From positions 117,001 to 181,000 of the forward strand of contig NC_079240.1 in NCBI RefSeq assembly GCF_027921745.1: a stretch of DNA of 64,000 nucleotides, read 5' to 3'. Positions 3,911 to 40,862 of the stretch are shown here, piece by piece (position 1 is the stretch's first letter; each line of letters starts with the position of its first letter). A program made the position numbers and the translations under genes. This DNA is from Schizosaccharomyces osmophilus. Taxonomy: Eukaryota; Ascomycota; Schizosaccharomycetes; Schizosaccharomycetales; Schizosaccharomycetaceae. The notes beneath the pieces were generated by a model, which saw only the letters and a list, made by a program, of their open reading frames with translations, was not told the origin of the DNA and did not search any database.

Positions 3911-5032
3911 TTATTGGTGATGCTTAAGAGTTACTGCATCATCATTTTCACTAGGCTGGTTGGACAAATTGGCTTTCATCCCAAGTAGGTCATATTGGCT
4001 GCTTGAGCGACGTTGCATCCAACGATTTAAGCCGCCTAAAAAGCTATTTTGGTGGTTTCCAGGGCCAGGGCTAGGAGGTGCGCTTGAACCATGCAAAGGA
4101 GTGTATTGTAGTTGGTAGTCCGTTGTAGCCATCGATAGGAAAGATTTTATGTCCGCCTTCAGATCACGGCTAGTAGATACCCAGTGGTTACGAATCGTGT
4201 CGCGTAGCATTTTAATATGATGGCGAAAATCCAGTTCATTCTTTTTGAACAAAGACACATTCAAAACCTTTCTGTCAACCCCTCTGGCTAGATTACGCAT
4301 GACATATTGATCGTAATCACGAATGATTCGCGTTAATAAGTCAGAGGTGGATACACCTTCCGTTCGTTTTGTAGGTATAAATTTGCCCACCTTTTTAACG
4401 GGAAGATAAATGTCACCACTATCATCTGAAGCATAAGGAATATCATCATGAGCGACAAAATCAATTTTGTGCTCTTCCAAAAAGTCCGGAGTAATGACCC
4501 AAGGTGCGCTTTCTACGACTTCGTCTACCCATTTGCAATGGCGAAGTGCCTCAGCTCGTTCTTTGTCATTCATAACAGTCAACCCCTTTAAACGATGAGT
4601 CAGCTTATCGTTGGGAAGGCCAACAATTAGATGGACGTTGGAAAACACTTTTTTTGCTTGCTCCAATTGTCTCATATGACCAATGTGAAATAAATCAAAA
4701 ACACCGTCTGCATAAACACGTACGGCTCGATCACTCGGAGGTTCATTAATAGGATAGTTAAATTCAGAATATTGCTCTTTAAATTTTACTTCAGTATGAG
4801 CTTCATCTTCATCCGTATCAGAGGTTGGATAGGAAGGAGTCGTTTGGTCCTCGTTGGATTCGTCAGTTAAATTTTGATCTTCATTATTACTTTCCGACTT
4901 TTCTTCTTCTTCCGAGGTGTCTATCGTGACCTTTTTAGCTTGTTGCTTCACCGAGTCTTCATCCTCTGAAAAATTTACATTCTCGATAGGTCGCTTCGCA
5001 TTCTGATCCTTTCTCGATTCTATTTCTCCCAT
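3911..5032 (-). CDS. pct1: Choline-phosphate cytidylyltransferase
   Basis: 373 aa, single exon, ATG at 5032..5030. It makes CDP-choline from CTP and phosphocholine, the rate-setting step of the CDP-choline (Kennedy) route to phosphatidylcholine. Residues 1-100 are an acidic Ser/Glu-rich tail; the catalytic nucleotidyltransferase domain spans about 103-240, with the HIGH signature at 116-119 (RVYADGVFDLFHIGHMRQ) and RTEGVSTS at 223-230. Residues ~250-300 carry the amphipathic, membrane-sensing helix type region, followed by a Ser/Pro-rich tail (SAPPSPGPG, RRSSS) likely to be phosphorylated. The symbol is the S. cerevisiae name; the S. pombe counterpart is SPCC1827.02c. Confidence 0.94.
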   Translation of the reverse strand: MGEIESRKDQNAKRPIENVNFSEDEDSVKQQAKKVTIDTSEEEEKSESNNEDQNLTDESNEDQTTPSYPTSDTDEDEAHTEVKFKEQYSEFNYPINEPPSDRAVRVYADGVFDLFHIGHMRQLEQAKKVFSNVHLIVGLPNDKLTHRLKGLTVMNDKERAEALRHCKWVDEVVESAPWVITPDFLEEHKIDFVAHDDIPYASDDSGDIYLPVKKVGKFIPTKRTEGVSTSDLLTRIIRDYDQYVMRNLARGVDRKVLNVSLFKKNELDFRHHIKMLRDTIRNHWVSTSRDLKADIKSFLSMATTDYQLQYTPLHGSSAPPSPGPGNHQNSFLGGLNRWMQRRSSSQYDLLGMKANLSNQPSENDDAVTLKHHQ

Positions 5033-5321
5033 AATATCAATAAATGAACCTCTAAAATGTACGATTTTACTGAAGACGGCTTTTTCGTTTCAATTCCACC
5101 TTAGCAGTGGTGACTGTGGTTAGGATGTTATCTTCAGCCATTAAATGGCCGAAAGAGTCTCTACATATAGTCTTAAATACAAAGGAAATAAATTGTACAG
5201 TTTATTACTAATTGAATGAAATATAGTAAGAGAATATTCTTAAGAAAAATTAGAGATACAAAATAAGGTAATTTGATCTAGCTAATGCACACGAAAATCA
5301 CACAACTGAAAATATAAGCAA

Positions 5322-15613: not shown

Positions 15614-16082
15614 TTCTTCTTCTAATGGTGTTGGTTGTAAACTGAATTTTTCAGCAAGAATATACTCTCTTTCAAATAAAATAACTCATAAAAATGCGCA
15701 ACACTACACTACGTATCACTAAAACTCGGTTCCGATGCACTCCAATGCACTACACCACACCCTTACTCAATGACATTCTCAACGTGGAAAGCATTGAAAG
15801 AATGCCTTTTTCTCGATTTCCTCAAAAACCGGGTTCCTCGTCTAGTGGGTTCTTATAAAAATACATTGAAAGTAATTTATCATTGTTAACCGATATTTAT
15901 CTACATGTTCATTCAACGCTAAAATTTTTTTATAACCAAAAGGACAAGACGGGAATCAAAGATTTAGCAGTAATAAAAAAACCCAACCTTTTTTCTATTT
16001 AAAAAGGAAGCAAAAAAGCAAAAACAATAAAAAAAGAGAATGAATACTTTTAAAAATATAACGGAAAGGGAAGTAAAGCAGA
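15614..16082. other. Intergenic; nop15 promoter and hom2 3' flank
   Basis: No gene recognised; poly(A/T)-rich near the hom2 stop. Confidence 0.55.
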
Positions 16083-39781: not shown

Positions 39782-40339
39782 TTAAACAAAAGAAAGGTAG
39801 CCAGAAGTTAACACAGATGCGATGAGAACAGCATAACCAGTACGGTAGACACCTTTAAGAGTTAATTCTTTGGCGGTGTCCCAAATCAAATGACGAAGTC
39901 CGTTAAAAATGTGGAAAGTAAAAGGATAGGAGACGGCGAATTTGGCAGGAACCTTTATCCATGTAGGAATTTGTTGAAGAAGACTAGAGATGGTTTCAGT
40001 ATCAAGAGAATAGCCAGCCAAAGGAGCAACTAAGTATCCAGTAGCAAAAAGATAAAGAGTACCAGCCAAGGCAACACCAGTGACACGGTGGAGACTGGAC
40101 AAGTACCAAGTTAGTTGAGGTTCATAGATGCTCAAATGGGGAGAATTGGGACGATGAAGACGCTGGTCAGCAAGGCGGGAACGGCCCTCCATGTCCGTCA
40201 TGTGTTCAGTAACGACGGAGCGTTTCCAAACATTATTCAACAAAGAAGAGGAAGCCAAAGAGTTGGAGGGACGCAACAATTGAGAGGCAGAACGGAAGAA
40301 TCCGGGAGAAAGAGAATGAAATGTACGGGTAGCAAGCAT
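39782..40339 (-). CDS. sdh3: Succinate dehydrogenase cytochrome b subunit
   Basis: 185 aa from the ATG at 40339..40337; the frame continues 5' only to a TTG. Membrane anchor of mitochondrial complex II. The N-terminus is an arginine-rich, acid-free targeting peptide (MLATRTFHSLSPGFFRSASQ). SPHLSIYEPQLTWYLSSLHR and the following helix (VTGVALAGTLYLFATGYL) give the ubiquinone-site signature; FHIFNGLRHLIWD carries the heme-b ligand histidine. Three membrane segments are visible. S. pombe counterpart SPCC330.12c; it is divergent to rpc37 across 523 bp. Confidence 0.95.
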   Translation of the reverse strand: MLATRTFHSLSPGFFRSASQLLRPSNSLASSSLLNNVWKRSVVTEHMTDMEGRSRLADQRLHRPNSPHLSIYEPQLTWYLSSLHRVTGVALAGTLYLFATGYLVAPLAGYSLDTETISSLLQQIPTWIKVPAKFAVSYPFTFHIFNGLRHLIWDTAKELTLKGVYRTGYAVLIASVLTSGYLSFV

Positions 40340-40862
40340 GGTTGAGTAGTTTCGCTGAAGACAGAAGGTAGGGTAAAGAACTTCGAAAAGTTTGTTTTTC
40401 ACTCTTAAAATAATCAAAAAATAAGTCTTAAACCGTGGATCGTGTCCCGTCTAATCCTCAAACTCACAAAAACAAATTAAACAGTGGTTTGTAGCGAATG
40501 GAATTGTAATCCTAGCTATTGGAGGGCATAACGACAATATCGGGACTTGCTAAAGAAGCGAGATGGTGCGCACTGCAACGAGGAAATGATGTAGTCGAGG
40601 GTTCGAATCCCAAGGAGACCTTCTTTTTTGTTTGAATTTTACCATTCGCCTTTACTGAGTGTTTGTAAAGAGTGTGTGGTTTCTTGAGGATACCTTAGAT
40701 GAAACTGAGATCTTGAAATAAATTATCATTTTTTGAGTTATCTTTGGAATTTTTGCTTAAAATCAACCGTGTTTGAACGAACGGAAATCATTGTGCTTTT
40801 TGTCTGGCAGAAGAGATAATTACTAGTCATTGGATTAAAGAAGCGCTTTCATAAGGTAAAGA
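40340..40862. other. Divergent sdh3/rpc37 promoter region with a TFIIIC B-box
   Basis: 523 bp with no coding sequence. It contains a perfect B-box and a T6 tract (listed separately). No complete tRNA can be folded here by eye. Confidence 0.6.
40600..40629 (+). promoter_or_regulatory. Perfect TFIIIC B-box followed by a T6 tract
   Basis: GGTTCGAATCC at 40600-40610 matches the Pol III B-box consensus GGTTCRANNCC at every position and is followed 13 bases later by TTTTTT (40624-40629). The flanks do not fold as a tRNA: the would-be T-stem keeps only its three inner pairs and no 5' acceptor partner for GGAGACC is present. It may be an extra-TFIIIC site, an eroded tRNA, or the promoter of an unknown Pol III RNA. 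Confidence 0.65.

Follow-up and report, generated by a model that had tools for sequence, protein, structure and literature searches.

Why does a perfect TFIIIC B-box stand, with no tRNA folded around it, upstream of a gene that encodes a subunit of RNA polymerase III (Pol III)? The site lies between sdh3 and rpc37 in a 64,000-nucleotide stretch of the Schizosaccharomyces osmophilus genome, the whole of which was analyzed and is here called the window. The B-box consensus is quoted in the available part of PMC4228148 as GWTCRANNC, the C being needed by TFIIIC. The original prediction described an exact B-box followed by a run of six T residues between sdh3 and rpc37. This was upheld: exact GGTTCGAATCC and the T6 tract were found at the coordinates below, Pfam matches identified both flanking genes, and the B-box lies the predicted 253-263 bp upstream of the rpc37 ATG. 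The features of the locus are:

39782..40339, minus strand: sdh3, succinate dehydrogenase cytochrome b subunit (Pfam Sdh_cyt), the divergent neighbor, ATG at 40339
40501..40620: 120 bp rich in GC, ending at the B-box, perhaps the body of a Pol III RNA gene or of a relic
40600-40610, plus strand: B-box GGTTCGAATCC, an exact match that fits GWTCRANNC as quoted in PMC4228148
40624-40629, plus strand: T6 tract, Pol III terminator-like, starting 13 nt past the B-box
40863..41582, plus strand: rpc37, Pol III subunit C37, RPC5/POLR3E family, 239 aa, ATG at 40863

A 13-base perfect inverted repeat, GGGTTCGAATCCC, at 40599-40611 encloses the B-box and is followed by CAAGGAGACCTTC and then by the T6 tract. 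The identity of rpc37 is given by the Pfam RPC5 match (E 3.5e-36) and by sequence matches to PDB RPC5 chains, and the only ORFs found upstream of it are short. No second copy of the sdh3-rpc37 intergenic DNA was found in the genome at E≤1. Within the window GGTTCGAATCC occurs exactly once, with two further copies that carry one mismatch, one of them in tRNA-Gly. The word GGTTCGAATAC, at 55974-55984 on the minus strand of the window, differs from the B-box by one mismatch.

Taken singly, the rpc37 site is not beyond chance, about one non-coding copy being expected per genome. We therefore carried out a census of the word and three sister variants across the whole S. osmophilus genome, using the pattern GGTTCGANTCC and counting distinct sites (an earlier count of 63 included overlapping loci). 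The degenerate pattern GGTTCGANNCC has at least 100 forward and at least 100 reverse matches in the genome. There are 37 exact copies of GGTTCGAATCC, 27 in tRNA genes and 10 orphans, eight of which were judged non-coding; its reversed word is absent from the genome. Of the 61 copies of the sister variant GGTTCGATTCC, 56 lie in tRNA genes and 5 are orphans, each of them judged coding; the 39 copies of GGTTCGACTCC comprise 37 tRNA-gene sites and 2 orphans, of which no more than one is non-coding; and the 18 copies of GGTTCGAGTCC comprise 16 tRNA-gene sites and 2 coding orphans. Pooled, the three sister variants account for 109 tRNA sites and 9 orphans, at most one of which is non-coding. Some of these assignments were made by eye from coordinates, namely 14 GGTTCGACTCC, 6 GGTTCGAGTCC, and 2 GGTTCGATTCC sites placed in tRNA genes. 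The orphans L147, L156, and L190 were judged from 151-156 bases only, L147 being ambiguous, and the least certain GGTTCGATTCC orphan is L103, where the open frame is 110 codons long and looks like an exon of a proteasome-subunit gene (Pfam E 0.026).

As a control, the TFIIIC-critical C was replaced with A, G, or T, which gave 15 sites over the three patterns (1, 5, and 9), 3 of them non-coding, or approximately one per pattern. The Poisson probability of the eight non-coding GGTTCGAATCC orphans is 1e-5 if one is expected and 0.012 if three are expected, and their share of the orphans (8/10) exceeds that in the control (3/15; Fisher p = 0.005). The ratio of non-coding orphans to tRNA copies is 8:27 for GGTTCGAATCC versus 0:109 for the sister variants (Fisher p = 6e-6), and this comparison stays at p = 5e-4 if three sister-variant orphans were non-coding. 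When all GGTTCGAATCC orphans are counted, coding ones included, the excess is mild (10 versus 5 per control pattern, P = 0.03). A site was called coding from the open frame running through it, in flanks of about 1 kb or less and with a cut set after the data had been seen. The frames through the eight non-coding orphans are 32-111 codons long, and those through the two coding ones, in a Vps16-family gene and in a protein-kinase gene with a MEKK4-type N-terminal match, are 250 and 257 codons long. For three of the eight, whose frames have 91, 99, and 111 codons, Pfam searches gave nothing above the cut-off; a short exon is still conceivable at L048, L052, and L055, where 91-111 codons are open. 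Since eight non-coding copies were found where about one was expected, and the sister variants have at most one such copy, there is an excess over chance that general tRNA decay does not explain. The census supports the existence of a real class of non-coding B-box sites, about eight in S. osmophilus, as judged from these word counts. The eight are:

L047: beyond the 3' end of a TAF4-family gene
L048: about 65 bp before the first ATG of a gene for a JmjC/PLU-1 demethylase
L050: upstream of a Sec16-family gene
L051, 4996-5006 (contig 1: 5457742-5457752): 19 bp upstream of a tRNA-Met gene
L052: between protein kinase and glycosyl hydrolase genes
L053: between bromodomain-BET and Utp12-family genes
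L055: between oxidoreductase and 3-beta-HSD-family genes
L056: the rpc37 site

In four of the eight (L047, L048, L050, and L056) the B-box is followed by T5 or T6, which begins 5-13 nt past it. The non-coding background for T5-6 within 20 nt is 8.6%, which gives a binomial probability of 0.002, a post hoc figure. Among the neighbors identified, rpc37 is the only gene for a Pol III subunit or factor beside any of the eight. The tRNA-Met gene next to L051 is presumably the initiator. Comparison of L051 with the tRNAs of the genome that were compared gave no significant similarity. In S. pombe, tRNA-Met is made from a dimeric pre-tRNA-Ser-Met (PMC4234475, in the portion of its text available), and the box at L051 may therefore be what is left of an upstream tRNA, still acting as a promoter. 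At L054 (about 4995-5050, minus strand), inside the kinase gene, a perfect B-box and a word resembling an A-box are spaced as in a tRNA gene; the A-box score is 11.3, with a p of 0.02 that is uncorrected for ten sites.

Such boxes could belong to Pol III transcription units. At rpc37 the unit would be either a decayed tRNA gene or an unrecognized gene for a small RNA, about 100 nt long, with the B-box at its 3' end and T6 as terminator, and its transcription toward rpc37 could disturb the rpc37 promoter or protect it, in the manner of the mammalian POLR3E MIR unit. The parts of a type-2 Pol III gene are incompletely represented: the B-box and T6 are present, the T-tract 13 nt past the box being near its position in tRNA genes, and an A-box and a stable fold were not found. 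Scanning 160-170 nt upstream of the B-box revealed no convincing A-box, the best score, 6.5, being lower than that of any of the 21 tRNA A-boxes used for comparison (7.0-16.0; p = 0.29), and folding around the box is no better than that of shuffled sequence (z -1.2 to 0.1). ARAGORN, with introns of up to 116 nt allowed in one run, placed no tRNA over 40600-40610, and the Rfam tRNA family, searched with permissive filters, gave no match at E≤10 around the B-box, in agreement with the prediction that no tRNA folds there. A decayed tRNA, for which a covariance-model search had been proposed, is not shown by the Rfam model, and the site has neither a detectable cloverleaf nor the covariance-model score of a tRNA gene or pseudogene. 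No known RNA family was recognized by Rfam around the box, the sole tRNA-like match being a 13-nt T-arm match to tmRNA, at 6 bits.

Base composition favors a transcribed unit. The GC content of 40501..40620, an interval picked by eye, is 48.3%, compared with a median of 33.3% for non-coding 120-nt windows, and is equaled by 8 of 1734 overlapping non-coding windows (0.46%), its own windows counted in, which places it in the top 0.5%. Its fold z is about 0. The top of the GC-rich list also takes in the tRNA and 5S region near 30 kb. Other top GC-rich non-coding 120-nt stretches of the window lie near 15700, 21300, 35100, 46400, and 46900, and could be unannotated RNAs or exons.

The best tRNA match of the rpc37 site is to tRNA-Asn(GTT), over 47 nt that take in GTGCGCA and the T-arm, and end-to-end alignment adds the GACC acceptor end. 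In favor of a Pol III unit, this likeness was equaled by only 1 of 100 shuffles and by 15 of 979 genomic stretches into which the 11-mer had been pasted, the most favorable of the genomic nulls. Stricter nulls tell against it: once they carried the 13-base repeat, 59 of 996 stretches from the genome and 131 of 1000 shuffles did as well. The end-to-end alignment was equaled by 108 of 596 null stretches, a null that still contained real tRNA genes. The tRNAs of the genome used for alignment numbered 37 distinct sequences in one list and 54 at the nulls of 979, 996, 1000, and 596, part of the full set. The tRNA-likeness score of the rpc37 site is the highest among the ten orphans, and so is the best of ten tried. 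L048, L050, and the coding orphan L054 have shuffle p values of 0.01-0.02, and their likeness was equaled by 61, 98, and 35 of the 979 genomic stretches, respectively; the figures for L048 and L050 weigh against the reading as Pol III units. The apparent likeness to tRNA-Asn is borderline and depends on the null chosen, 1% to 18% of null stretches equaling it.

If the orphans were relics of tRNA genes, the commoner B-box variants would be expected among them too, yet one variant accounts for nearly all the non-coding orphans. A Pol III unit or relic nonetheless stays a live rival, unlikely but deserving to be kept in view, because of the T5-6 runs after half of the eight, the GC-rich stretch, and the tRNA-Asn likeness.

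That the rpc37 box is a fortuitous 11-base intergenic match, unbound or bound without effect, we consider improbable. The control predicts about one non-coding copy per genome, and the excess over all orphans is mild; eight non-coding copies were found against about one expected, so that each has a prior of about one in eight of being the chance copy, and the rpc37 site moreover has both T6, for which the background within 20 nt is 3.5%, and the GC-rich stretch. It is still less probable, and indeed doubtful, that GGTTCGAATCC, whose TTCGAA core is palindromic, serves some other DNA-binding protein of Pol II promoters: the enrichment of one exact variant, whereas tRNA genes here take A, T, C, or G at that position, and the mixed neighbors (TAF4-family, JmjC/PLU-1 demethylase, Sec16-family, bromodomain-BET, and others) would suit such a protein, but the word is the B-box of 27 tRNA genes here and so should be recognized by TFIIIC, and we know of no factor with this motif.

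The explanation that we prefer, at a little under an even chance, is that the rpc37 site, in the divergent sdh3-rpc37 promoter region, is one of about eight ETC/COC-type elements in which a B-box alone binds TFIIIC. The B-box-binding half of TFIIIC would contact GGTTCGAATCC, with no A-box to place TFIIIB, and the bound TFIIIC would act on nearby Pol II initiation or on chromatin. As a result, rpc37 might be repressed or its start site fixed, as proposed for ETC6 at TFC6, or sdh3 might be insulated from rpc37. We infer the binding of TFIIIC from the use of this very word as B-box in 27 tRNA genes, and we also infer the absence of Pol III, an effect on rpc37, and feedback at the site. Lack of an A-box at workable spacing is a feature of extra-TFIIIC sites. 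The rpc37 site has a GWTCRANNC B-box outside known Pol III genes and no workable A-box upstream, and by these sequence features it is a candidate member of the ETC/COC group. Against a bare TFIIIC site, the T5-6 runs after four of the eight orphans and the GC-rich stretch fit a transcribed Pol III unit better, and about one of the eight would be expected by chance. In the open literature that was searched we found no report of a TFIIIC site at fission yeast rpc37.

The closest parallel is in S. cerevisiae, where the ETC6 site in the TFC6 promoter, to which the original prediction appealed, is confirmed by the accessible text of PMC4228148. Like the rpc37 site, ETC6 is a lone B-box in the promoter of a Pol III apparatus gene; it differs in that TFC6 is a TFIIIC gene, whereas rpc37 encodes a polymerase subunit and T6 follows its box. 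ETC sites are few per genome, eight in yeast according to the part of PMC12409998 available, compared with the eight non-coding orphans here. In S. pombe, of the same genus, COC sites bind TFIIIC outside Pol III genes and without Pol III, as stated in the available sections of PMC4370569 and PMC8046420. The COC sites at S. pombe sfc3 and sfc6, to which the original prediction also appealed, find no mention in the texts consulted. COC sites are defined by occupancy, and ETC sites by TFIIIC occupancy without TFIIIB or Pol III, whereas the rpc37 candidate is known from its sequence.

A second comparison is with mammalian POLR3E, the ortholog of rpc37 (Rpc37 = POLR3E/RPC5), which has a type-2 Pol III element. 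This is a MIR in intron 1, antisense to the gene and transcribed by Pol III, that lowers POLR3E expression, and the authors propose a possible negative feedback (PMC5358760, as far as its available text goes); a later preprint calls POLR3E-MIR a known autoregulatory module (PMC10896340, in the excerpt available). According to the same portion of PMC5358760, the mouse has in addition a tRNA-Leu gene upstream of the Polr3e start site. Feedback that reaches the polymerase itself is already reported in mammals, at POLR3E, within that portion of PMC5358760. The MIR is an intronic antisense SINE with A and B boxes and active Pol III, whereas the rpc37 box lies ahead of the ORF, in the sense orientation, and without an A-box, so the active antisense Pol III unit inside the gene that characterizes the mammalian module is not present. 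Because strand, place, and anatomy all differ, the resemblance would be convergence at best and not homology. Fission yeasts and mammals might independently have put a Pol III/TFIIIC element at the C37/POLR3E gene as a local sensor of Pol III/TFIIIC activity, in S. osmophilus as a lone B-box and terminator ahead of rpc37, taken from a limited group of stereotyped extra-TFIIIC sites; we regard this proposal as a long shot.

The original prediction fared differently in its two parts. The extra-TFIIIC reading gains from the anatomy of the site (B-box only, with no A-box and no tRNA) and from the census; the proposed autoregulation of Pol III does not, as only one orphan of the eight lies at a recognized subunit gene. 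Since the remaining orphans, as far as their neighbors were identified, are not found at genes for Pol III subunits, autoregulation is at most a surmise. The neighbors tell against the class existing for this purpose; the rpc37 locus alone may still serve it.

The observation is real and, as one of a class, non-random, and its reading as a TFIIIC site is plausible. The box may let the Pol III machinery sense or set its own level, and the site would bear on how cells balance the many Pol III subunits. If the reading is true, a TFIIIC site at rpc37 would give yeast genetics direct access to a feedback loop such as has been proposed for TFC6 and reported for POLR3E. From the census comes a short list of candidate extra-TFIIIC sites that can be tested in a fission yeast besides S. 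pombe, together with a simple mark of the class (one exact B-box variant, non-coding, followed by T5-6 in half of the cases) that could be compared with existing TFIIIC maps of S. pombe.

Among the other apparatus genes, sfc3 and rpc53 were examined for B-boxes. The 9-base core GTTCGAGTC lies about 7 nt upstream of the first in-frame ATG of sfc3 (Pfam B-block_TFIIIC), at L107:2068-2076 on the minus strand; this match is weak and could be due to chance, because about 0.2 are expected per 500 bp. Upstream of rpc53, which encodes the partner of Rpc37, there is a tRNA-Ser(GCT) gene. The DNA between the two genes holds no open frame as long as 80 codons, and the distance from the B-box to the ATG is about 840 bp (L108:56-910, contig 3 at about 1916328-1917182).
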